A stretch of 64,000 bases of DNA. Source: Noviherbaspirillum suwonense (lineage in GTDB: Bacteria > Pseudomonadota > Gammaproteobacteria > Burkholderiales > Burkholderiaceae_D). The notes below the pieces were generated by a model. The model was not told the DNA's origin and did no database searches. It saw only the letters and a program-made list of their open reading frames with translations. The DNA is taken from contig NZ_FXUL01000009.1 in NCBI RefSeq assembly GCF_900182955.1, positions 124,001 to 188,000 of the forward strand, written 5' to 3'. Positions 10,789 to 25,517 of the stretch are shown in pieces. A program made the translations under genes and the position numbers. Every line of letters starts with the position of its first letter. Position 1 is the first letter of the stretch.

Positions 10789-13308
10789 TCAGTCCATCAG
10801 CAATGGCATCACGTTCACCGCCAGCGCGAAGGCCAGGCCCTGCAGCGTCGTGTAATGCCAGATCAGCGCGCTGTTGTCCATGGTGGCCCGGCTTGCCGGC
10901 GTCAGGTAGCCGCTCCAGGAGCGGGCGACCAGGTAGGCAGCGACGATCAGCAGCAGCACCGCATGCAGGCCCTGGTAGCCGAGCATTGCGCCGATCGTCG
11001 CGCTCCATGCCTGCGCCGACGGGTCCAGGCCGGCCAGCACCTGCCCGGCCATGTCGCAGGCGAAGCTGGCGGCCATGCATGCGGCGGCGGCGATCACCGC
11101 CAGGCGAAGCGCCCGCTGCCCGCCTTCGACGGACAGCCGACGCCGCGCCCAGACCATCAGGGCCGAGCCCGCCAGCAGCAGCCCGCAGGACAGCAGCGGC
11201 CACACCGGCGTTGGCAGGGCCGCGTTCGGCGGCGGGCAGCTGACCGGAAGGCGCATCGAGATATGGATATAGGCGAACAGGAAGGAAGCGAACACCGTGC
11301 CGTCGACCACCAGCATGATCACCGTCGCCCACCACGACTGCGAGACCGGGCCAGACGCGCCGACCGGCAGCACGACGTCGTCGGACACCCGGGCGGCGGC
11401 CAGCGGCGGCGGCCGGTCGGATTGCCACAGCCAGATGATCACCGAGGCGATGGCGGTAATGCCGCAGGCCCAGGCCAGCAGGTGCAGCTTGACCGTCAGC
11501 AGCAGGAAGAAGCCGGCGGTGCCGGCGGCCGCCACCAGCGGCCACCAGCTGTCGCCCGGCACGATCATCAGGTAGAGCGGCCGCCCCGCCACCGGGCTGG
11601 TCGCGATGGTTTCGCGCAGGCCGGTAGCCGTGCCCGGGAGCCAGTGCCGGCCGGCCTCGACTTCCTCCATCATTTCCGGCCGGTCCCACAGCGGATAGTC
11701 GGACCCGATGTCCGGGATGCTGCGGGTCGCGTAGTCCTCCGAATGCAGCCATTCCAGCGTCGACGCGTTCCATGGATTGCCTGGCCGCCTGGCCGCCTTC
11801 TTCAGGGTGCGCGCCGCATCCACGCAGAACAGCAGCACGCCGGCGGCAAAGATGAAGGCGCCGACCGTGGACGCCATGTTCAGGCCGGTCCAGCCGAGAT
11901 CCGGCGCATAGGTGTAGACCCGGCGCGGCATGCCGAGCAGGCCGGTCAGGTGCATCGGGAAGAAGGCCACGTTGAAGCCGACGAACATCAGCCCGAACAC
12001 CCAGCGCGCCAGCCGCTCGGACAGCGCGTGGCCATTGATCAGCGGGATCCAGTAATACATGGCCGCGAACACCGGGAAGACCATGCCGCCGATCAGCACG
12101 TAGTGCAGGTGGGCGACGATGAAATAGGTGTCATGCGCCTGCCAGTCGAACGGCACGAGCGCGACCATGACGCCGGTCAGGCCGCCGAGGACGAAAATGA
12201 ACATGAAGCCGAGCAGGAACAGGGTGGGGCCGTTGATGCGCACCGTGCCCTTCCAGAGCGTCGCAATCCATGCGAATACCTGGATCGCGGTCGGCACCGC
12301 CACCGCCATGCTGGCTGCGGAGACGAAGGCCATCGACAGCAGGCCCAGGCCGGCGGTGAACATGTGATGCGCCCACAGCGCGAAGCTGAAGAAGCCGACG
12401 GCGACCAGCGCGATCACCACCATGCGCTGGCCCACCAGCCGCTGCCCGGCGATGGTGGGTATCATCGTGGAGACCATGCCGGCCGCCGGCAGGAAGATGA
12501 TGTAGACCTCCGGGTGGCCGAAGAACCAGAACAGGTGCTGCCACAGCACCGGGTCGCCGCCGCGCTCGGCGATGAAGAAGGGCCAGTCGAATGCGCGTTC
12601 CAGCTCCAGCAGCGCGGTGCCGGCGATGATGGCCGGGAAGGCGAACACGATCATCACGCCGACCACCAGCATCGACCATGCATAGACCGGCATGCGGGCC
12701 AGCGTCATGCCCGGCGCGCGCGTGAACAGGATGCCGACGATCAGCTCGATCGCGCCGGCAATCGCCGAGATCTCGATGAAGCCGATGCCCAGCAGCCAGA
12801 AGTCGGCATTCATGCCGGGCGAATAGGCGGTGGACGTCAGCGGCGGGTACATGAACCAGCCGCCGTCCGGCGCCAGCCCGACGAACAGCGTGCAGAAGAA
12901 TGCCAGGCCGCCGATCGCGTACGCCCAGTATGCATAGGCCGAGAGCCGCGGGAAGGGCAGGTCGCGCGCGCCCAGCATGCCGGGCAGCAGGTAGACCGCG
13001 ATCGCTTCGACCACCGGGATCGCGAACAGGAACATCATCACCGTGCCATGCATGGTGAAGACCTGGTTATAGGTGCCTGCGCCGAGGAGGGTGTTGTCCG
13101 GCACGGCCAGCTGCACGCGCATCAAAAGGCCAAGCACGCCGGCCAGCAGGAAGAACAGCAGCGCGGTGCCGATGTAGAGCAGGCCGATATTGGTATTGTT
13201 GACCGTGCTGAAAAAGCGCCAGCCGGCAGGCGTCTTCCAGGTGCGTTCGAGCCGGCCCAGCTCGTCGGGCGGCCGCGGCAGCGAAGAGGGTAATGGGATG
13301 GACGTCAT
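10789..13308 (-). CDS. cytochrome c oxidase, fused subunits I and III
   Basis: An 839-residue heme-copper oxidase in which subunit I (about residues 1-600) is fused to a subunit III-like domain (about 640-830). Subunit I marks are the low-spin heme histidine in FTMHGTVMMF, the active-site WFFGHPEVY with the His-Tyr pair, the CuB histidines in ALWAHHMF, and AHDTYFIVAHLHYVL with the heme a3 and a ligands. The subunit III part has about five helices, including WWATVIMLVVDGTVFASFL and YQGLHAVLLLIVAAYL. The fusion is known for some caa3 and ba-type enzymes of bacteria and is a natural genomic variant. The ATG overlaps the subunit II stop (ATGA). It acts in the inner membrane as a proton-pumping terminal oxidase. 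Confidence 0.93.
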   Translation of the reverse strand: MTSIPLPSSLPRPPDELGRLERTWKTPAGWRFFSTVNNTNIGLLYIGTALLFFLLAGVLGLLMRVQLAVPDNTLLGAGTYNQVFTMHGTVMMFLFAIPVVEAIAVYLLPGMLGARDLPFPRLSAYAYWAYAIGGLAFFCTLFVGLAPDGGWFMYPPLTSTAYSPGMNADFWLLGIGFIEISAIAGAIELIVGILFTRAPGMTLARMPVYAWSMLVVGVMIVFAFPAIIAGTALLELERAFDWPFFIAERGGDPVLWQHLFWFFGHPEVYIIFLPAAGMVSTMIPTIAGQRLVGQRMVVIALVAVGFFSFALWAHHMFTAGLGLLSMAFVSAASMAVAVPTAIQVFAWIATLWKGTVRINGPTLFLLGFMFIFVLGGLTGVMVALVPFDWQAHDTYFIVAHLHYVLIGGMVFPVFAAMYYWIPLINGHALSERLARWVFGLMFVGFNVAFFPMHLTGLLGMPRRVYTYAPDLGWTGLNMASTVGAFIFAAGVLLFCVDAARTLKKAARRPGNPWNASTLEWLHSEDYATRSIPDIGSDYPLWDRPEMMEEVEAGRHWLPGTATGLRETIATSPVAGRPLYLMIVPGDSWWPLVAAAGTAGFFLLLTVKLHLLAWACGITAIASVIIWLWQSDRPPPLAAARVSDDVVLPVGASGPVSQSWWATVIMLVVDGTVFASFLFAYIHISMRLPVSCPPPNAALPTPVWPLLSCGLLLAGSALMVWARRRLSVEGGQRALRLAVIAAAACMAASFACDMAGQVLAGLDPSAQAWSATIGAMLGYQGLHAVLLLIVAAYLVARSWSGYLTPASRATMDNSALIWHYTTLQGLAFALAVNVMPLLMD

Positions 13309-14363
13309 TTCAGGTGTTCCAGGTAGGCGGCCAGCGCCGACAGCGTGGCGCCGTCCAGGCGCTCGAACGACGGCATGCGCGCGCCGGGCTTGACGGCCTG
13401 CACGCCGGCGATCCATCCGGCCATGGCGCCGCTGTGATTGGGCAGCACGCCGGCGGCCAGGTAAAGCCGGCTGCCGACATGGGTCAGGTCGGGACCGAGC
13501 GTGGCGTCGCCGGCGTCGTCGGACGGGCTGGTCACGCCGCGTATCGCGTGGCAGGCATTGCACCGCTGCGCGAAAAAGGCCGCGCGGCCGCGTTCGAGCA
13601 GCGCGTTGCCGGCGGAGGCTGATGCTGCATCCGGTGCGACGGGTGCATTCGGTGCGACGGGCGCGATGGGCGCAGCCGGTGCGGCCTGCCGCGCCAGCCA
13701 GGCGTCGAAGTCCTGCTGGCTCTCGGCGACCACGTGCATGGCCATCTTCGCATGCTGCTGGCCGCAGTACTCGGCGCACTGGCCGCGATAGACGCCCGGC
13801 CGGTCGGCCTGCAGCGTGAGGCCGTTGATGCGGCCCGGTATCGTGTCCATCTTGCCGCCCAGCGCCGGCACCCAGAAGCTGTGGATCACGTCGGCGCTGC
13901 CCAGGCCCAGGTAGACGCGGCGGCCGACCGGGATATGCAGCTCGTTGGCCAGCAGGATGTCGCGCCCGCTGGCCGGGTCGCGGTAGCGCACTTCCCACCA
14001 CCACATCCTGGCGGTCACTGATATATGCAGCGCATCCTGCGAACCCTGCGGGCTGAGCTGCGCGCTGCGCCAGGTCGAGTACAGCAGCAGCGCCGACAGC
14101 ACCGCCACCGGCAGCGCGATGCCGCCGCCGGCGATCCACCAGCGCGCATCGACCGGCCGGCCGCGCCGCAGGCTCAGCGCCAGCAGCGCCATGACGCCGA
14201 CGAAGAGCGCCAGGCTGCCGGCGCAAAGCATCCACAGCATGCCGGTGATCAGCGCGGCATCCGGCCCGGCCGGGTGCAGCACCGACTGCAGCGAGGGCAG
14301 CTGCGCGCAGCCGCCAAGCAGCATGGCGGCAGGCAGGGCCGGCAGGAGCGCGCGGGCCGTCAT
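13305..14363 (-). CDS. cytochrome c oxidase subunit II with C-terminal cytochrome c domain
   Basis: A 352-residue subunit II of a caa3-type oxidase. It begins with a lipoprotein-like signal (MLLGGC), followed by two membrane segments (ALITGMLWMLCAGSLALFVG and WIAGGGIALPVAVLSALLLY). The periplasmic CuA domain carries the ligands in CAEYCGQQHAKM and the preceding DVIHSFWVPALGG. After an Ala-Pro-rich linker with repeated APVAPNAP units comes a cytochrome c domain with heme site CNACH and a distal Met in GARMPSFERL. The ATG is coupled to the upstream cytochrome gene by ATGA. The domain lets soluble or small lipoprotein cytochromes hand electrons straight to CuA. Confidence 0.92.
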   Translation of the reverse strand: MTARALLPALPAAMLLGGCAQLPSLQSVLHPAGPDAALITGMLWMLCAGSLALFVGVMALLALSLRRGRPVDARWWIAGGGIALPVAVLSALLLYSTWRSAQLSPQGSQDALHISVTARMWWWEVRYRDPASGRDILLANELHIPVGRRVYLGLGSADVIHSFWVPALGGKMDTIPGRINGLTLQADRPGVYRGQCAEYCGQQHAKMAMHVVAESQQDFDAWLARQAAPAAPIAPVAPNAPVAPDAASASAGNALLERGRAAFFAQRCNACHAIRGVTSPSDDAGDATLGPDLTHVGSRLYLAAGVLPNHSGAMAGWIAGVQAVKPGARMPSFERLDGATLSALAAYLEHLK

Positions 14364-14731
14364 TGCGGCGTATACAGCGCCGCCGCCATGTGGCGGGCGT
14401 CGGCTTCGGAAACGCCCATGACCGGCATCCGCGTGCCGGGCACCAGGGCCGGCGGATTGACGATCCATGCGACCAGCGATTCGGGCAGGTTGGGGATCTG
14501 GCCGGCGATATAGCTGCGCCGCCAGAAGTCCGCCAGCGGCGGGCCGGCGGTGCCGCGCGCCGCCACGTCGGGTATCGCATGGCAGGCGCCGCACTGGTAC
14601 TGGTTCATCAGCGCCTTGCCGCGGACGGGGTCGCCGCCGTCGACCCGCAGCGCCTGCGGCTCGTCGCGCGAGCATCCGGCCAGCAGGCAGAGCGCCATGC
14701 AAAGCGCCAGGGGACGGATGCAGCGCGTCAC
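14360..14731 (-). CDS. monoheme cytochrome c lipoprotein
   Basis: A 123-residue class I cytochrome c with a lipoprotein signal (lipobox LLAGC), heme site CGACH and axial Met in GTRMPVMGVSE. The start chosen is a GTG at 14731, giving a short positive n-region; the frame stays open to 14875 and no good ribosome site marks the true start. It heads the minus-strand oxidase operon and is coupled to subunit II. It is closely similar in layout to the lipoprotein cytochrome at 15601-15969 (shared IP-V, N-P, MPV-GV-EADAR, M-A pattern), so the two are probably paralogues that flank the divergent promoter region. Confidence 0.82.
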   Translation of the reverse strand: MTRCIRPLALCMALCLLAGCSRDEPQALRVDGGDPVRGKALMNQYQCGACHAIPDVAARGTAGPPLADFWRRSYIAGQIPNLPESLVAWIVNPPALVPGTRMPVMGVSEADARHMAAALYTPQ

Positions 14732-15052
14732 GCGCAGCCCGGTCCGCGGTCCCCCGGCACGGCGCCGGTGGGAATGGCTGCGGATAAAGAATAACGGTGT
14801 GTGCTGTGCATGGCGATGACTTGCAAGTAAGGAATCGGGCGGAATCCAGGCAAAATCCAGGCGGAAGCCAGGCAAAATTCAGGGCGGCGGGGCAGGCGCG
14901 CAGGGCCGATTTTGCCGAAGTTCAGCCGGATGCAACCACGTTCCCGACAAGGAATCGGAAAAAGCACGCAAATAAGCGGCTTGGGCTTGACCGCATGGGG
15001 CGACAGCGGGCCGCTCTTGTGCAACATTGGCCGACCTCGACTTTTAAGCGCA
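14732..15052. other. divergent intergenic region between two cytochrome c operons
   Basis: About 320 bases without a convincing gene. It contains the 11-base phased repeats described separately (14831-14884). Downstream of these are a less GC-rich patch around 14940-14985 and the leader of the plus-strand cytochrome gene. No strong promoter hexamers stand out. An open frame on the minus strand extends the cytochrome gene into this region but lacks a signal-peptide start. Confidence 0.5.
14831..14884. repeat. imperfect 11-base direct repeats in the oxidase divergent promoter region
   Basis: Four to five head-to-tail units of the form RRAATCCAGGC: GGAATCGGGC, GGAATCCAGGC, AAAATCCAGGC, GGAAGCCAGGC and AAAATTCAGGGC. 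An 11-base period is close to one DNA turn, which would place repeated sites on one face of the helix. Regulatory function is inferred, not shown. Confidence 0.5.
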
Positions 15053-15604
15053 ATGCTTGACGCCCGCATGAGACCCGACAACAAGCGCCTGGTGCTGACG
15101 ACCGTCGCCGCAACCCTGGCCGCCTCCGCCGCGCTGGCCGCCGCGGCCGGCGCGCTCTTCCTGTTTTCCGGCTGGTACAGCATCGGCGCGACGGTGCAGC
15201 ACTGGCAGCCCGTGTACACGGTGCTGGAACGGGGCATGCACTACTCGGTGCGCCATCATGCCGCCGACATCCGGCCGCCCGATCTGGCCGACACCCGGAT
15301 GCTGCAGCGCGGCGCGGCGCTGTACCGCGACCATTGCCTGCAATGCCATGGCGGGCCGGGCGCGCCGCAGGCCGGCATCGGCAAGAGCATGCAGCCGATC
15401 CCGGGGCCGCTGGTCGATGCGGGCCGGCGCTGGAAGCCGCAGGAGCTGTACTGGATCACCCGCCACGGCATCAAGATGAGCGGCATGCCGGCATGGGAAT
15501 TCCGCATGCCGGAGGACGACCTGTGGGCGGTCGTTGCCTTCCTCGGCAAGCTGCCGGCGCTGTCGTCGAAGGAATTCGCGCTGGCGATGGAGGAAGGGAA
15601 ATGA
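15053..15604 (+). CDS. membrane-anchored cytochrome c
   Basis: A protein of about 183 residues with an N-terminal membrane anchor (VLTTVAATLAASAALAAAAG, ALFLFSG) and a periplasmic cytochrome c domain. The heme site is CLQCH and the likely axial Met is in KMSGMPAWEF. ATGs at 15053 and 15068 are both possible and neither has a good ribosome site. It is divergent from the oxidase operon and coupled (ATGA) to another cytochrome, so it probably feeds electrons to the caa3-type oxidase. The APQAGIGKSMQPIPGPL stretch and the DDLWAVVAFL ending are typical of small cytochromes found in such clusters. Confidence 0.82.
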   Translation: MLDARMRPDNKRLVLTTVAATLAASAALAAAAGALFLFSGWYSIGATVQHWQPVYTVLERGMHYSVRHHAADIRPPDLADTRMLQRGAALYRDHCLQCHGGPGAPQAGIGKSMQPIPGPLVDAGRRWKPQELYWITRHGIKMSGMPAWEFRMPEDDLWAVVAFLGKLPALSSKEFALAMEEGK

Positions 15605-16951: not shown

Positions 16952-17563
16952 TCAGTCGCAGACCGCCACGGCGCCGACGTAGCCGGCCGGCAGCGCGAGT
17001 TCGCTGACCCGGCACTGTTCCAGCGCCCGCTCCAGTTCCGGCGTCCATTCCTGCAGGCGCAGGCCCAGGCACTTCAGCGCCGCCTCGTGCCGGGTCCATG
17101 CCCGCGCGAACGCCGCCTGTCCATCGCCGCCGCGAAGGGCCGCGAGGCTCGCCGCGGCGACCGGTCCCAGGTAGTCCTGCGCGATCGCCTGCCGGTCCGG
17201 CATCGCCGCGTCGGCGGCGCGCATCAGGTCCACGCCCACCCTGCCGCCGACGCATACGGCCGCCAGCGACAGGCCGGCCTCGTGGCTGATGGACAGGTGA
17301 ATCGGCTGGCCGTCAGGGGACAGATGGTCGACGCGCGGCGCCTCGCCGGGTTCGGCATGCAGGTTCAGCGCTTCGGCCGGACAGCCGGCCAGCGTCGCCA
17401 GGAAGGCGCGCAGCGCCGCGCGCACCAGAGCGCGCGCCTGGTCGCGCAGCGTGGTAACGGGCGTCGCCACCATCAGCACCGCCGGCGCGCCGTGCGGGAC
17501 GGGCAGGACGGGCAGCAGCCGCCCGGCGCGGTCGGCCCAAACGGGCGTCACCAGTCCCGCCAT
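16952..17563 (-). CDS. 4'-phosphopantetheinyl transferase (Sfp-type)
   Basis: A 203-residue enzyme that would transfer phosphopantetheine from coenzyme A to the serine of a carrier domain. It has the two Sfp-family signatures: [12 protein letters not shown] (Mg-binding acidic residue) and [16 protein letters not shown] (the WxxKEA-like motif, with His where Lys is usual). [10 protein letters not shown] in the middle is also typical. The ATG is eight bases after the NRPS stop, so the pair is one transcription unit and the NRPS carrier domain (S584) is the obvious target. No strong ribosome site is seen; coupling to the NRPS stop is likely. The His for Lys change in the third motif is worth noting. 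Confidence 0.85.
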
Positions 17564-17571
17564 GCCGGCTG

Positions 17572-20500
17572 TCAGCCGCGCGCGGGCGCGGCCGGGCTGC
17601 CCTGCCAGCCGGTGTCGGCCGGGATCGCCTCGCCCTTCATCACCAGGGTCAGCGCCGCCAGGCGCGCGCGGTCGTGGACCTGCGCGCCGTACAGCACGGC
17701 GCTGCGGGCGCCCATGCAGACGCCTTCGCCTATCGTGACATGGTCGATCTTCATCACGCGGTCTTCGAACAGGTGGGTCTGCGGGCAAGCCAGCGCATTG
17801 ATCTCGCTATGGTCGCCGATGCTCACGCAGTCGAATTCGGTGATGTCGGTGGTGTCCATGTAGACGCCGCGGCCTATCCTGCAGCCGAGCATGCGCAGCG
17901 CGACCGGGAGCCACGGGGTGCCGCGCAGGTGGCGCAGGAAGCTCGGCACCGTGATGCCTTCATACATGCTCGTCACCGCCTCGGACAGCCAGACGAAAGG
18001 CGTCCACATCGGCACCGTGCAGGGCTTGTACGCGCCCATGAACAGCCACTTCAGCGCGACCACGAAAAGCAGCGTGCCCAGCCCGTACATCAGGCCGGCG
18101 AACGCGAGGCCCGACGCCACTTCGCCCCAGCGCCCGGCTTCGGCGGCCGGCATCAGGCCAAGCACCACCACGTAGCCGACCGCGGTCATGATCGCGTGCG
18201 GCGCGGCGATGCGGAAAGCCTCGACCGCGCCGCGGCAGATGCGCCGCAGCCGCGACGGCTTGAAGGTCAGCCGCTCCGGGAAGCCGGTGGTGCCCTCGCG
18301 CGCCGGCAGGTTGATCGCCGGCGAGCCCAGCCAGCAGTCGCCCGACTGCATCTGCGCATTCGGCGGGGTATAGCTGTGGACGCCGATCAGCGAGTTCTCG
18401 GGGAGCACGGTGCCGTCGGGGACATAGGCGCCGTTGCCGACGAAGCTGCGGCGCGAGATCACGGTCGGCTGCATGGTCATCCAGCCGCCGTCGATATGCT
18501 CGTCGCCCAGCATCACCGCGTCGGCGATGAAGGTCTCGTCGCCCAGCGTCAGCATGTCGGGCACCACGCCCAGCGCCGACGAGATCTCGGCATCGCGGCC
18601 GACCTTGGCGCCCAGCAGGCGATACCAGAGCGACGAGTAGACGGTCGCATAGACGCCGTGCAGCACGTTCAGGCTGGCTTCCTGGATCTGGTTCACCAGC
18701 CACTTGCGGCAATACATGTTGCTGTGCACCGGCCACGAGCCCGGCTTCAGGCGCGGCAGGATGGTCCAGCGTATGCCGACCGACAGCAGCACCGTGCAGA
18801 TGATCAGCACCGCCGACGCCGGCAGCGCGAGCAGGAAGTGGCGCGCCAGCTGCACCGGCACGTTGTCCGACTGCAGCCAGGTGAAGCGGCCCGGCTCGCC
18901 GAGCCAGTCCATCAGCATGAAGGCGGGGAACACCGGCAGGAAGAACAGCAGCGCCACCAGCAGCGCGCCGCAGGCGAAGAACGCCGTTTCGCCGGCCAGC
19001 CGGCTGCTGGACACGCGGGGCCGCGCCATCCGCGCCGACGGGTCGAACGCGCCGGTGTCGCGGGCCGGCGAGCCGCCCCAGTTGCGCCCGGCCGGCACCT
19101 TCATGCCGGAGAGCAGCGCGGACAGGCCGTCGAGATGCGCGTCGGCGCCGACGTCGGTATCGCCTTCCAGCACCGAATAGGAACCGACGAAAGCGCCGTC
19201 GGCCAGCGTGATGCGGCCCAGGCGCAGCTCGCCGCCTTCCACCTTCGCATTTTCGAGGTTGACCGCGTTGCCTATGCTGGCGCCGCTGCCGATTTCCAGC
19301 AGCGCCGGCGCGCGCAGCGTGATCGAGCCGATCAGCGTGTCATGCCCGACCTTCGCGCCGAGGGCGCGCAGCCAGTGGACATACAGCGACGAGCCGGTCA
19401 GCAGGTAGGTCGGCGCCAGGTCGCCCAGCCGGTCGCCCAGCCACCAGCGGAAATAGGTCAGGCCCCAGAGCGGATAGCGGCCCGGCTTCAGGTCGCCGGC
19501 CACCAGGCGCACGCCGGCCGCGGAGACGACGAAGGCCAGCAGCGTCATCAGCAGGAAGACGCCGCCCGACGCCCCCACCGCCAGCGCGATCGAGTCGCCC
19601 GGGTCGCCGGTGAAGAAGTGATAGGTGAAGAACGGCGCGAGCCATTGCGCCATGCGCAGCGTCATCAGCGCCGGCGTGACGATGGCCTGGGCCGCGCCGC
19701 AGGTCCAGCGGCGGCGCGCGGAAATGGGCGGCGTCAATGGCCTGGCCGCCGGCTGGCTCTCCGCCTGACCAATGGCGATCGCCTCGGCGATCGCGGCGAT
19801 CTTCCGGTGCTGGTAGATGTCGCGCACCGTCACATGCGCATAGCCGGGCCGGGCGCGCAGCGCCGAGGCCAGCCGCGCGGCGAACAGCGAATGGCCGCCG
19901 AGGTCGGAAAAGAAATCGGCGTCGCGCTGCAGCGGCTGGCCGGGGAACAGGGTCTTCAGCACGTCGAACAGCACCGTCTCGGCAGCCGTCTGCGGCAGGT
20001 CGCCGCCGCCGTCGGCCACGACGGAAAGGGGGCGGGCGCGCAGCGCGTTGCGGTCGATCTTCCCGGAGATCAGGCGCGGCATCTCGTCCAGCGCCTCGTA
20101 TTTGCCCGGCACCATGTACGGCGGCAGGCTGGCCGCGAGCGCGGCGCGCAATGCGCGCGTATCTGCCGCGGCGCCGCCTTCGGACACGATGAAGGCGACC
20201 AGCTGCTCGATGCCGTCATCCTTGCGCAGCAGCACGGCGACCGTGCCGATGCCGGGCTGGCGTGCGATGGCCGCCTCGATCTCGCCGATCTCCACGCGGA
20301 AGCCCCGGATCTTGACCTGGTCGTCGGTGCGGCCGAGGCATTGCACCTTGCCCTGTTCATCGATGCGGGCCAGGTCGCCGGTGCGGTACAGCCGTCCATG
20401 CGCGCCGCTGGAGGCGAACGGGTTGGCGATGAACTTCTCGGCGGTCAGTTCGGGCCGGCCGAGATAGCCGCGGGCCACGCCCGGGCCGGTGATGCAGAGC

Positions 20501-21639
20501 TCGCCGGTGTCGCCGGTCGCCGCGAGGCGCAGGCTGCCGTCGGTGCTGGTGTCGAGGACCAGCAGGCCATAGTTGGGCAGCGGCGCACCGATGGTGACCG
20601 GCTCGCCGGCGCGCAGCGTGGTCATGCTGGCGGACACGGTGGCTTCGGTCGGACCATAGCTGTTGAACACGGTCCGGCCGTCGCGCGCCCAGCGCGCGAC
20701 CAGCGACTCGGGGCACATCTCGCCGCCGAGGTTGATGATGCGCAGCCCCGGCACGTCCTGCTCGAACAGCGCGAGCAGGGTCGGCACCGCGTGCAGCACG
20801 GTCACGCCATGTTCGTCCAGCGCGCGCGGCAGCGCCTCGGGGTCGACGGCGACCTGGCGCGGCGCGATCCACAGCGTGGCGCCGACCAGGTAGCTGATCC
20901 AGATTTCCTCGAACGACATGTCGAAGGCGACGGAGAAACCCTGGTAGACCCGGTCGCTCTCGCGCACGCCGAGCACGCTGTTCTCGCTGCGCAGGAAGTG
21001 GCAGATCGCGCCCTGGGAAATCTCGATGCCCTTGGGCTTGCCGGTGGAGCCGGAGGTGTAGATCACGTAGGCCGGGTCGGTCGGCAGCACCTGGCCGCGG
21101 CGGCGCAGCGGCGCGTCGGCGGGCTGCAGCAGGTCTTCCGTCAGCCACAGCGCGCATGGCAGTCCGTCCAGCTGCGGCGCGGAGGCGCTGCAGCTGATCA
21201 GGCCGGGCGACTGCGCGTCCTCGAGGCAGACCTGGATGCGGGCCGGCGGCGTCTCGACATCGAACGGCAGCCAGGCCGCGCCGGTCTTGGCGATCGCCGC
21301 CTGCAGGATCAGCAGGTCGGCGCCGCGCGGCAGCCACAGCCCGATGATCTGGCCGGCGCCGACGCCGGCGGCGATCAGGCGCGACGCGGCCAGGTCGGCC
21401 GCGCTGTCCAGCTCGGCATAGGTCAGCGTGCGGGCGCCGTCGATCAGCGCCGGCTTGCCGGGCAAGCGGGCCGCGGTGGCTTCCAGCAGGTCGGCCAGGC
21501 ATTCATCGCGGATCAGGTCGGGGCGGTCCGGTCCCATGAGGCTGGACGGCTGCAGTTGCGCCTGCAGGTCGTCCGTTGAAAATGCAATGGGGGCTAATTC
21601 GATATTGGCAAAGAGATCCAGGGGCATGACCGAGTCCAT
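17572..21639 (-). CDS. Pls/PosA-like NRPS: adenylation - carrier - membrane acyltransferase
   Basis: A 1355-residue one-module synthetase. The adenylation domain (about 45-530) has A3 YTSGSTGKPKG (194-204), the FDMSFEE pocket start (239-245), YGPTEATVSA (328-337) and K527. A carrier domain follows with S584 in GGHSLFA. The rest (about 650-1355) alternates about six membrane helices with left-handed beta-helix acyltransferase-like repeats. This layout and length match epsilon-poly-L-lysine synthetase Pls and the NRPS terminal-domain family. By alignment to GrsA the pocket reads D240 M241 E244 H283 I302 L304 S327 V335 S336 K527. It shares six of ten positions with a remembered bacitracin lysine code (DAESIGSVAK), and the acidic E244 suits a cationic side chain. 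The substrate is inference. Confidence 0.88.
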   Translation of the reverse strand: MDSVMPLDLFANIELAPIAFSTDDLQAQLQPSSLMGPDRPDLIRDECLADLLEATAARLPGKPALIDGARTLTYAELDSAADLAASRLIAAGVGAGQIIGLWLPRGADLLILQAAIAKTGAAWLPFDVETPPARIQVCLEDAQSPGLISCSASAPQLDGLPCALWLTEDLLQPADAPLRRRGQVLPTDPAYVIYTSGSTGKPKGIEISQGAICHFLRSENSVLGVRESDRVYQGFSVAFDMSFEEIWISYLVGATLWIAPRQVAVDPEALPRALDEHGVTVLHAVPTLLALFEQDVPGLRIINLGGEMCPESLVARWARDGRTVFNSYGPTEATVSASMTTLRAGEPVTIGAPLPNYGLLVLDTSTDGSLRLAATGDTGELCITGPGVARGYLGRPELTAEKFIANPFASSGAHGRLYRTGDLARIDEQGKVQCLGRTDDQVKIRGFRVEIGEIEAAIARQPGIGTVAVLLRKDDGIEQLVAFIVSEGGAAADTRALRAALAASLPPYMVPGKYEALDEMPRLISGKIDRNALRARPLSVVADGGGDLPQTAAETVLFDVLKTLFPGQPLQRDADFFSDLGGHSLFAARLASALRARPGYAHVTVRDIYQHRKIAAIAEAIAIGQAESQPAARPLTPPISARRRWTCGAAQAIVTPALMTLRMAQWLAPFFTYHFFTGDPGDSIALAVGASGGVFLLMTLLAFVVSAAGVRLVAGDLKPGRYPLWGLTYFRWWLGDRLGDLAPTYLLTGSSLYVHWLRALGAKVGHDTLIGSITLRAPALLEIGSGASIGNAVNLENAKVEGGELRLGRITLADGAFVGSYSVLEGDTDVGADAHLDGLSALLSGMKVPAGRNWGGSPARDTGAFDPSARMARPRVSSSRLAGETAFFACGALLVALLFFLPVFPAFMLMDWLGEPGRFTWLQSDNVPVQLARHFLLALPASAVLIICTVLLSVGIRWTILPRLKPGSWPVHSNMYCRKWLVNQIQEASLNVLHGVYATVYSSLWYRLLGAKVGRDAEISSALGVVPDMLTLGDETFIADAVMLGDEHIDGGWMTMQPTVISRRSFVGNGAYVPDGTVLPENSLIGVHSYTPPNAQMQSGDCWLGSPAINLPAREGTTGFPERLTFKPSRLRRICRGAVEAFRIAAPHAIMTAVGYVVVLGLMPAAEAGRWGEVASGLAFAGLMYGLGTLLFVVALKWLFMGAYKPCTVPMWTPFVWLSEAVTSMYEGITVPSFLRHLRGTPWLPVALRMLGCRIGRGVYMDTTDITEFDCVSIGDHSEINALACPQTHLFEDRVMKIDHVTIGEGVCMGARSAVLYGAQVHDRARLAALTLVMKGEAIPADTGWQGSPAAPARG

Positions 21640-21776
21640 GAAGAAACTGTTCTATTAGCGAGCAGCACAGACTTCGGTTGACCTGGAAAAAAAAGAATAT
21701 TGTGCTTTATGGTAATAAAGGAAACAGAACGAAGAGGATTCGGCGCCGCCGGCGGGACCAGGCGCCGGCAGCGGCG

Positions 21777-22175
21777 TCAGCCGGCAACCGCGGAGACTTC
21801 CACTTCGACCAGGTAGCGGGCGTCGGCCAGGCGCGCGACGCCCAGCAGCGTCGACGCCGGCGGCGCCGCGCTGAAGAAGCGGTACAGCGGTTCGCGGCCT
21901 TCGGCCATGAAGCGGTCCATGTCGGTCGTGTAGACGTGCAGCCGGACGATATGCGCCGCGCTTGCGCCGACCGCGTCGAGCGCAAGCTGCAGGTTGTGCA
22001 TCACCTGCTCGACCTGGCGGGCCATGTCGTTTTCGCCGACCAGGTTGCGCTCCCGGTCGAGCGGCACCATGCCGGCGATATGCCATTGCGTGCCGGGCGC
22101 CGAGACCACGATCTGGCTGTAGACGTCGCCCGCGGCGCGGTAGAGATTGTCGGGATTGAGGCGCTGATGCGGCAT
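21777..22175 (-). CDS. RidA family protein
   Basis: A 132-residue RidA/YjgF/YER057c-family protein. Members deaminate reactive enamine or imine intermediates of amino acid metabolism or act as dihydropyrimidine-type amidohydrolases. Visible features are the trimer-core strand HIAGMVPLDRERNLVG, VHVYTTDMDRF and the C-terminal VEVEVSA. The usual C-terminal arginine motif (R-x-x-V) appears as LVEVEVSAV, so the archetypal substrate Arg is doubtful. The start ATG has GGAG nine bases upstream. It lies between the NRPS gene and a divergent esterase; a link to either is unproven. Confidence 0.82.
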   Translation of the reverse strand: MPHQRLNPDNLYRAAGDVYSQIVVSAPGTQWHIAGMVPLDRERNLVGENDMARQVEQVMHNLQLALDAVGASAAHIVRLHVYTTDMDRFMAEGREPLYRFFSAAPPASTLLGVARLADARYLVEVEVSAVAG

Positions 22176-23110: not shown

Positions 23111-23572
23111 TCAGGCCTTGAACATCCGCGCGTCGAAGGCGAAGTCGCGGACGATTTCCAGCCGGATGTCCCGGTACGCCGGGTGGCGCGGATTCAGCAC
23201 CGCATTGCGGGATTCGGGAATGATGGCCGAGGGCACGAACAGGATCAGCCCGCTCGCCGATTCGATCCACCGGCGGCCGAACTCCTGCGTGCTGGCCGGG
23301 GCCGGCAGGTCGGCCCAGTCGGGCGGCAGCTCCGCCATCGACGGCCGGTAGACCAGCGACGCATCGTCGGGTGCATCGATGGATACCAGCACCAGCGGCG
23401 GATGCGACGACCCGGCGAGATGGACGAACTTTTCCAGCGCGCAGATCTCGATGGTCGCGCCGGCATACATCACCGGCCAGGCGATCGGATTCCAGCGGCC
23501 GCCGTACAGGCGGGCGCCTTCGCACAGCGTGTCGAGCGCCCACTTCCGGGTCGTGATGCGCCACAGCCTCAA
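23111..23572 (-). CDS. RES-domain toxin of a RES-Xre toxin-antitoxin pair
   Basis: A 153-residue RES-domain protein. Characterised members (MbcT, ParT) use NAD+ as substrate, by phosphorolysis or ADP-ribosyl transfer, and arrest growth. The family pattern is clear: LWRITT at the start, ARLYGGRWNP (Arg/Tyr), ALEKFVHLAG (Glu) and SESRNAVLNP near the end. The start is a TTG that shares bases with the antitoxin stop (TTGA), giving tight coupling. The gene converges on the esterase gene. Confidence 0.85.
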   Translation of the reverse strand: MRLWRITTRKWALDTLCEGARLYGGRWNPIAWPVMYAGATIEICALEKFVHLAGSSHPPLVLVSIDAPDDASLVYRPSMAELPPDWADLPAPASTQEFGRRWIESASGLILFVPSAIIPESRNAVLNPRHPAYRDIRLEIVRDFAFDARMFKA

Positions 23573-24138
23573 GCCACGCCGCCCGTGGCGATCGCGTTGA
23601 GCACCTGCCGCACCGACACCGCGCCCGGCTCGGTGTCCATCAGGTCCAGAGGCGCGGTGTTGTCGAACGCGCGATTCGGCTGGCGCATCCATTCGACCGC
23701 GGCGGCTTCGTCCTCGAACACGTCGATCGCCATGCGCGTCACCGTTCCCATCCGGTACAGCCGCTCGGTGGCGGCTGCATCGATCCGCGCCGCGCTCTTC
23801 TCGAGCCGGCTCGCGGTCGACGCCGGGACCTGGGCAATGGCCTGGATGCGCGCATCGGTGACGCCGAAAAAGCGGCTGGCGGCTTTCAGTATGGCGGCCG
23901 GATAGCCTTCCCGTATCGACTGGACCGCGGCAAACCCGCCCAGCGGCGCGCCGGATACGATCTGGCCGAACGCCCCCGGGTCGTTCCGCTTCGCCGTCGC
24001 CGGGGAAGGCCGCGTTCCCGTTGCAGCCTTCTTTCGTGCGCTCCCGGCCCCGGCCTTGCCGAGTGCCGCGTCGGCCGCGTGCACCCGCTTGTCGGCGGGC
24101 ATCCCAGCCGTACTCTCTTTCCTTGCAGGCACGCTCAT
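23569..24138 (-). CDS. Xre/MbcA-type antitoxin (DUF2384)
   Basis: A 189-residue antitoxin with a long Lys/Ala-rich N-terminal region. A helical Xre-like domain (about 75-130) follows, then the MbcA/ParS C-terminal domain ending in NRAFDNTAPLDLMDT and VRQVLNAIATGG, which covers the toxin active site in known complexes. Two ATGs are adjacent (24141 and 24138); the second has GGAGG at six bases and is preferred. The unusually basic, low-complexity first 60 residues differ from compact MbcA antitoxins. Autoregulation through the palindrome at 24148-24177 is likely. Confidence 0.85.
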   Translation of the reverse strand: MSVPARKESTAGMPADKRVHAADAALGKAGAGSARKKAATGTRPSPATAKRNDPGAFGQIVSGAPLGGFAAVQSIREGYPAAILKAASRFFGVTDARIQAIAQVPASTASRLEKSAARIDAAATERLYRMGTVTRMAIDVFEDEAAAVEWMRQPNRAFDNTAPLDLMDTEPGAVSVRQVLNAIATGGVA

Positions 24139-24147
24139 CATTCACCT

Positions 24148-24177
24148 CCATTTGAAGACATAGAATACACCAAATGG
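24148..24177. promoter_or_regulatory. candidate autoregulatory operator of the RES-Xre unit
   Basis: Perfect 7-base arms CCATTTG (24148-24154) and CAAATGG (24171-24177), with centres 23 bases apart, about two helical turns. The left arm touches the GGAGG of the antitoxin gene and the AT-rich spacer holds the likely -10 (TATTCT on the minus strand). This position suits repression by the antitoxin. Confidence 0.5.
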
Positions 24178-24398
24178 TTGTTCCTGTGATTTCCGCTGTG
24201 GCGGCGGCGCCGGCGCGCCCGGAAGGCCGCCGCTCCGACGGTGAGGGGCATCCATCTTCCGGGGCGCGGCTTGCCAGGAAACAGTCCTGCAACCCTGGCC
24301 ATTTAAATTTATTTCTTGACCGGAACTTTCTTATTGTCGAGTATTCAAACACGATTTTTCCGCGCCGAGAGCCTGCCGGGAAAGCCGCGGCGAACACG

Positions 24399-25517
24399 AT
24401 GTCGAATCCACCCTTCCAAGATCCCTCCCGCACCTCGCGCAGCCAGACCGGCAGAAGCGAACTGCGCCGGCCGACCCAGGCCCTGGCGCTCGCTGCGACG
24501 CTTCTCTGCATTTATCCCGTTTTCAGCGTCGCGCAGGACCGGCTGGTCATGGGCGGCGACGCCGGCGATCTGCCGTCGCTGCCGGGCGAGGCGCGCGGCG
24601 AGGAAGCCGATGCGGTCAATGTCGATACCGGCAGCATCGGCCTGACCGACCGATCCTTCGACAACGTGATGGGCGTGCGCCTGGACGGCTATCAGGAACT
24701 GGCGCCCGCGGTCGTGCTTGAAAAAGGCTGGCTGGTTTCGCGCAAGCTGGGCATCGGCGGCGTCTATACGGTCCAGAGCGGCTCGTCCGAGCTGGTGCTC
24801 AACGGCGTCTACGCGCCCCGGCGCGATGTGCGCATCCAGATTTCGGCGTCGCAGATGCGGATGAACGGCGTGATGGCCTCCCTTGGCGGCGTCGATGAGA
24901 CACTGGTGCAGACCAGCCTGCTGACCAGCATCCGGAAGCAGTGGTCGAAAAGCCGGGTGCGCCCGGAAGCCGGTTTCACCGTGTTCACCGCCAGGGCAGG
25001 CGGCCCGGGCCAGCGGGACGTGACCGCCACCGGCATCGAGATGGGCACGCTCGCCGGCTACATGCTCAAGCTCGCCGCGATGCCGATGGTGCGCACGCGC
25101 TTCGAAGTGAGCTACCAGGCGGAGAGCACGATCTACGACAATGCGTTCGCAGCGCAGTGGCGCGACCGGCAGGCGTCGGCCAGCGTGAATTATTCGCAGG
25201 GCTTCGACGACTGCAGCATGCTGCACGGCCGCTTCACGACCGGTCCCGGCCTGAGCCGGGCCGACCTGCGCTACGAGAAAGGCGCATTCAGCGTCGGCTT
25301 CCTGCAGACCCGCAGCGAAGACTATGCCGACCGGATGGTCCAGTTCACCTATTCCCTCGCGCTCGACGGCCGCAGCCGGTCCGCCGCGACCTGCGATACC
25401 GACCCGGCGTCGCCGGCCCCGTTCCGCGCCATCGTCGACGCCGCGACAGCCCGGCCCTCCTACCTGCCCACCGAACCATTGACCCGCGCCGTCAGCGCGT
25501 CCGATGCGCCGAGCTGA
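24399..25517 (+). CDS. exported protein, probable outer-membrane or surface protein
   Basis: A 372-residue protein with a signal peptide-like segment (ALALAATLLCIYPVFSVAQD, preceded by an Arg-rich stretch). The mature part is full of alternating hydrophobic/polar strands (VRIQISASQMRMNGV, RTRFEVSYQAESTIYDN, QASASVNYSQGF), as in beta-barrels. It has a few cysteines and no catalytic motif that I recognise. The frame is open upstream to 24174 but the first credible start is the ATG at 24399; no strong ribosome site is present. It is transcribed away from the RES-Xre unit. Function unknown. Confidence 0.6.
   Translation: MSNPPFQDPSRTSRSQTGRSELRRPTQALALAATLLCIYPVFSVAQDRLVMGGDAGDLPSLPGEARGEEADAVNVDTGSIGLTDRSFDNVMGVRLDGYQELAPAVVLEKGWLVSRKLGIGGVYTVQSGSSELVLNGVYAPRRDVRIQISASQMRMNGVMASLGGVDETLVQTSLLTSIRKQWSKSRVRPEAGFTVFTARAGGPGQRDVTATGIEMGTLAGYMLKLAAMPMVRTRFEVSYQAESTIYDNAFAAQWRDRQASASVNYSQGFDDCSMLHGRFTTGPGLSRADLRYEKGAFSVGFLQTRSEDYADRMVQFTYSLALDGRSRSAATCDTDPASPAPFRAIVDAATARPSYLPTEPLTRAVSASDAPS

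Follow-up and report, generated by a model that had tools for sequence, protein, structure and literature searches.

The window, a 64,000-nt stretch of the Noviherbaspirillum suwonense genome, contains two adjacent genes that very probably form a unit for producing a cationic homopolymer with isopeptide bonds, delta-poly-L-ornithine being the most likely product. The first is an intact gene for a synthetase of the PosA type and the second encodes a phosphopantetheinyl transferase (PPTase), a frequently conserved partner. The occurrence of the pair was confirmed and is far beyond chance. PosA was published in 2023 and the synthetase is an added member of this known enzyme family; the frequent synthetase–PPTase pairing is worth recording. 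What we add is the PPTase adjacency in relatives, the presumably AcpS-like nature of the genome's other PF01648 match, and the position, in the third repeat, of the one near-invariant His that the C-terminal domain has.

The synthetase is encoded by a single open reading frame of 1355 codons (Table 1). Pfam profiles located AMP-binding at residues 52–393, AMP-binding_C at 453–527 and PP-binding at 566–621. The carrier motif, LGGHSL, places its serine at position 584, which is Ser in all 98 rows of the synthetase alignment. The region spanning residues 650–1350 matched TIGR02353, the NCBIfam model 'Pls/PosA family non-ribosomal peptide synthetase', with 807.8 bits against a cut-off of 423.1, the match extending over positions 2–695 of the 695-position profile. 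With a score nearly twice the cut-off, the synthetase is a member of the Pls/PosA family. One adenylation (A) domain and one carrier precede the C-terminal domain, and Pfam detected neither condensation nor thioesterase domains in the protein. A profile search for the condensation domain PF00668 found none in the whole genome, and this result, with the TIGR02353 match, led us to reject an ordinary NRPS module. A preliminary description of this DNA had proposed a Pls/PosA-like layout of 1355 residues with the carrier at S584, as the reading frame, Pfam and TIGR02353 bear out. It had named a C-terminal region of ordinary condensation or thioesterase type as counter-evidence; what was found instead is the TIGR02353 match.

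Table 1. Coordinates in the window of the synthetase–PPTase pair and its parts
Feature	Position	Strand	Basis
PPTase, 203 aa, likely activator of the synthetase	16952..17563	(-)	PF01648; adjacency in relatives
Predicted PosA-like delta-poly-L-ornithine synthetase gene (A-T-membrane polymerisation domain)	17572..21639	(-)	ORF of 1355 aa; TIGR02353
C-terminal polymerisation domain, residues 650-1350, three (helix pair + beta-helix) repeats	17590..19692	(-)	TIGR02353; model; fold search
Q1287-T1288-H1289, candidate catalytic site, third repeat	17773..17781	(-)	Q and H in 98/98 rows; catalysis inferred
Carrier (thiolation) domain, residues 566-621	19777..19944	(-)	PF00550; Ser584 in LGGHSL
Adenylation domain, about residues 47-535	20035..21501	(-)	Pfam AMP-binding and AMP-binding_C; PDB 8g95, E 2e-151
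Substrate-pocket stretch D240 M241 E244 H283 N303 G305 S327 V335 S336	20632..20922	(-)	Alignment to PosA (8g95), published residue numbers

In a sequence search of the PDB, the best match was the A-core of PosA from Acinetobacter baumannii (8g95, E 2e-151). Entries 8g95–8g98 ranked at the top and epsilon-poly-L-lysine synthase 7wew gave E 6.3e-71. The A-core is identical to that of PosA at 237 of 401 residues. According to the alignment to the solved PosA, the pocket reads D M E H N G S V S, which is the PosA set of nine bar one Thr-to-Ser exchange (Thr304 in PosA, Ser327 here). As a control on the mapping, PosA D217, M218, E221, H260, N280, T304, V312 and S313 landed on the correct letters. 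In the published work, PosA is predicted to have the pocket D M E H N G T V S K; the residues in contact with its substrate are D217, M218, E221, T304 and S313 (PMC10522769). All five ornithine-touching residues are kept, as D240, M241, E244, S327 and S336; at S327, Ser in place of Thr retains the hydroxyl. The preliminary description had read the pocket as D M E H I L S V S K. Its E244 stands, the correct residues for positions 5 and 6 are N303 and G305 in place of I and L, and its proposal of a cationic substrate is supported by the PosA-like pocket, which points to a cationic diamino acid. Its comparison with the poly-lysine synthetase layout holds for family and layout: Streptomyces Pls shares the A-T-membrane polymerisation arrangement (PMC9205021) and the TIGR02353 family name. 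The alignment that it proposed, to Pls and A domains of known substrate, placed the protein with PosA by pocket, identity and clade. On these three counts the closest characterised enzyme is PosA, which shares the domain order and eight of nine pocket positions, and not an actinomycete poly-lysine synthetase.

PosA prefers L-ornithine over lysine by >160-fold in apparent kcat/KM, and its product in vitro is free delta-poly-L-ornithine of 7–12 residues (PMC10522769). The N. suwonense product is likely to be delta-poly-L-ornithine as well. Position 2 of the pocket, which sets substrate length, bears on whether the same chemistry might use a basic amino acid other than ornithine, such as lysine or diaminobutyrate. 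It is Met (M241) as in PosA, as opposed to Ala in Pls and Phe in diaminopropionate and diaminobutyrate enzymes (PMC10522769), and it is Ala in four Streptomyces-type homologues (two Streptomyces, Kitasatospora and Rhodococcus opacus; pocket DAESIGTVV). Although PosA binds and weakly activates lysine, and the pocket differs slightly at S327, wild-type PosA gave no lysine polymer and its lysine activity rose nearly tenfold upon M218A substitution (PMC10522769). A different monomer is thus quite unlikely, and ornithine remains our preferred assignment.

A scan of genome contigs yielded 554 stretches encoding a synthetase relative, of which the best 80, the closest ones, were kept. These derive mostly from Burkholderiales and other Betaproteobacteria, the closest being that of Noviherbaspirillum soli (81%; 81.4% identity in the A domain and 83.6% in the C-terminal domain). 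The pocket is DMEHNGTVS in 78 of these best 80 and DMEHNGSVS in the other two (L011 and L012), the only ones to share Ser at 327. Either version occurs in 85 rows of the 98-row alignment. The Sphingomonas homologue has DMEHNGTVT, and those of Azospirillum and Rhizobium have DLEDIG-. Three homologues from another class of the same phylum (L091, L092 and L094) carry DFEALGTVT; under the published rule, a Phe in the second place is a sign of a shorter diamino-acid substrate (PMC10522769).

Phylogenetic analysis of 98 sequences, with an arbitrary root on Pseudonocardia and with L098 and L063 left out, grouped the synthetase with L011 and L012 (support 1.0). This group falls within an 81-tip clade (support 1.0) of genome-contig and sampled-family sequences, and an 85-tip clade (support 1.0) also includes the A. 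baumannii homologue. That homologue (L107), from a strain other than the source of the characterised PosA, shares 60.7% identity in the A domain (297/489) and 51.6% in the C-terminal domain (363/704). Two Streptomyces-type homologues share 38–39% and 31–32%, respectively (179/465 and 222/688 for one of them). Of the genomes sampled, 26 of 398 from the phylum and 53 of 145 from the taxonomic family scored above the TIGR02353 cut-off; sub-cut-off matches in both samples were short beta-helix stretches and were excluded from the counts. Judging by these frequencies, many Gram-negative bacteria carry the enzyme family, and clusters from Proteobacteria have likewise been reported (PMC10522769). The earlier statement that such systems are little known in Gram-negative bacteria is out of date, given the characterisation of PosA in 2023 (PMC10522769) and the frequency in sampled Pseudomonadota. 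If our assignment is correct, many environmental Betaproteobacteria probably produce delta-poly-ornithine, which would then be no oddity of one Acinetobacter, and these relatives would be convenient hosts for finding the polymer's role. In one sampled genome (G519:C23:688583-690684), the synthetase match is split into two overlapping pieces in different open frames; either the gene is broken or the assembly is faulty there.

The PPTase gene starts with an ATG at 17563–17561, eight bases past the synthetase TGA at 17574–17572, and its product scored 35.3 bits against PF01648 (cut-off 25), in agreement with the spacing and function first proposed. Among the best 80 of the 554 relatives, 60 have a PPTase homologue immediately downstream, encoded on the strand of the synthetase. 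As for the other 20, L066 ends close to the edge of its contig, L053 has a 35% match immediately upstream instead and 18 lack an adjacent PPTase. Distances between the two genes (n = 59), which are biased short as they were taken from the first possible start codon, comprised 25 overlaps; 55 did not exceed 20 bases and the maximum was 93. In the sampled family, 37 of the 53 synthetase-bearing genomes, which may share species with the 80 relatives, have the PPTase downstream. Moreover, 36 of the 39 PPTase matches of at least 44 bits in this sample adjoin a synthetase, which suggests that these PPTases are a lineage associated with that enzyme. G458 accounts for two of the remaining three matches and G404 for the other; both are draft genomes lacking a synthetase above the TIGR02353 cut-off. 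The nine weakest match rows were omitted from this count; by eye, none lies beside a synthetase.

The linked PPTases share D112, W156 and E160 in 60 of 60 aligned rows and K164 in 59. The N. suwonense protein has the residues of GxD...WxxxEAxxK, the Sfp-type pattern. Sfp has a further acidic metal ligand, E109, located two positions beyond that Asp. The equivalent residue is Met114, two residues past Asp112; Met occupies this position in 41 of the 60 rows, and the six commonest letters, none of them acidic, account for 59. The linked PPTase is divergent at this position, and also in that a sequence search of PDB structures returned no relative of it at E 0.01. The genome has one other PF01648 place, whose encoded protein resembles AcpS. 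PP-binding matches number seven in the genome, the synthetase included, so the PPTase may serve other clients.

On 11 plasmid-record loci (L107–L117), a profile of the linked PPTases gave one match, directly downstream of the synthetase in Rhizobium L110 (E 4.8e-13), and none in A. baumannii, Azospirillum or seven actinomycete loci. Sphingomonas parapaucimobilis L109 resembles the N. suwonense locus in that its synthetase is followed by an overlapping annotated PPTase gene. It differs in that this PPTase falls outside the profile and the synthetase is only 42.7% (A domain) and 38.2% (C-terminal domain) identical. In A. baumannii, posA is a single-gene operon (PMC10522769), whereas here the PPTase follows the synthetase; neither tblastn nor the profile found a PPTase in L107. 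PosA was active when produced in E. coli BL21(DE3), and the Results and Discussion of that report do not mention PPTase co-expression, nor does 'phosphopantetheinyl' appear in its main text (PMC10522769). Together, the 18 of 80 relatives without a neighbouring PPTase, its absence from L107 and the activity of PosA in E. coli BL21(DE3) indicate that the partner is inessential to the family. In N. suwonense, we predict that the PPTase is most likely the switch-on partner of the synthetase, suggesting a route to fully active synthetase. The pairing was not found in print in a literature search that had subscription journals mostly outside it, and the text retrieved on NAPAA together with phosphopantetheinyl transferase concerned other enzymes.

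The C-terminal domain was modelled with AlphaFold (residues 640–1355, 38 sequences; mean pLDDT 79.3, pTM 0.85). In the model, the long helices form three pairs and beta-strand repeats come after each pair; confidence is lowest in the third repeat. The model bears out the alternation of membrane helices and beta-helix repeats in the preliminary description; the six helices of the model compare with five hydrophobic segments in a hydropathy scan. The best Foldseek matches in the PDB were hexapeptide-repeat acetyltransferases, at low query coverage (TMq ≤0.17), the named matches including maltose O-acetyltransferase, CysE and the N-acyltransferase AntD. A sequence search of solved structures with this region gave weak beta-helix matches only. 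The three-repeat layout is not new because a threefold beta-helix arrangement has been modelled for PosA (PMC10522769).

Residues R731, D1040, E1220, G1240, T1241, E1268, Q1287 and H1289 are unvarying across the 98 aligned rows, although such invariance proves a limited amount, reflecting shared ancestry in an alignment heavy in close relatives. Among 38 near-invariant C-terminal positions in 23 diverse rows, H1289, in the third repeat, is the only His. This asymmetry, as read from the alignment, is an addition over the published PosA model. Hexapeptide acyltransferases commonly use a His base, which makes a single transfer site at H1289 a reasonable hypothesis. Such a site would also fit the non-covalently bound growing chain published for Pls (PMC9205021). 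The invariant Q-x-H site offers a directly testable answer to how bonds form without a condensation domain.

Hexapeptide-repeat acyltransferases use varied acceptors. The resemblance of the C-terminal domain to these enzymes could therefore mean that ornithine or a short chain is attached to a lipid, a cell-wall part or a small molecule, with no free homopolymer, and a Pls/PosA-like gene does occur within a hybrid lipid cluster (PMC13291983). Given the free 7–12-mers formed by PosA in vitro (PMC10522769) and the lack of a widely conserved acceptor-pathway gene beside the pair (within 6 kb, among the clusters listed), we consider this unlikely and favour the free polymer.

In the mechanism that we propose for free delta-poly-L-ornithine, the PPTase would attach phosphopantetheine to Ser584, and the A domain would adenylate L-ornithine and load it onto the carrier. 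By analogy with the PosA crystal structures, D240 would grip the alpha-amine and E244, S327 and S336 the side-chain amine. The membrane domain would then join the ornithyl group to the delta-amine of free ornithine or of a non-covalently held chain, transfer possibly occurring at one third-repeat site around Q1287, H1289, E1268 and E1220. The polymer might conceivably be released outside the cell and act against fungi or at the cell surface. A broader and distinctly tentative reading is that the pair is a self-contained polycation cassette, with a carrier-dedicated divergent PPTase lineage across Betaproteobacteria and as far as a Rhizobium plasmid, and with a single third-repeat Q-x-H site in an acyltransferase-like membrane domain rather than three tandem condensation domains.

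Of the first 30 clusters of ORFs lying within 6 kb around 81 synthetases, that of the PPTase was the largest (52/81). It was followed by an antisense frame (22/81) that is apparently a coding-strand shadow, LysR regulators (15/81) and clusters of at most 12 sequences each. A conserved transporter or degrading-enzyme neighbour was rejected on this basis, only the PPTase being widespread, and the early remark that no tailoring or export gene stands beside the synthetase holds for widely conserved genes among these clusters. A RidA/YjgF-family gene (PF01042; 21777–22175, minus strand) ends 137 bases upstream of the synthetase on the same strand; it was rejected as part of the unit, having no match in the loci of the best 80 of 554 relatives, and probably lies outside it.

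A scan of 21600–21800 found no sigma-70-like promoter, a weak test with 0.1 expected by chance. This would be in keeping with an intact pair that is silent in this strain, which we consider very unlikely in view of the full-length frame, the presence of the carrier Ser, the pocket and the invariant C-terminal residues, and the identity to the N. soli homologue cited above.

Elsewhere in the window, the frame at 23111–24511 (minus strand) ends in a RES domain (PF08808, E 1.5e-24) preceded by ∼310 residues without a family; RES domains are known to act as toxins in toxin–antitoxin pairs. A 1263-codon frame at 10789–14580 (minus strand) contains a COX1-type oxidase subunit at residues 465–910, and a cytochrome c gene lies nearby on the opposite strand (14912–15604, plus strand). 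Among the plasmid records, one from Streptomyces (L114, 6396–7799) and one from Kitasatospora (L115, 6435–7766) have a gene for an M1 metallopeptidase immediately after that for the Pls/PosA-family synthetase; the peptidase is a candidate enzyme for polymer degradation or self-protection. In Sphingomonas L109 (2572–7687), the synthetase and its overlapping PPTase gene are accompanied by an overlapping GNAT acetyltransferase gene, possibly for tailoring or protection.
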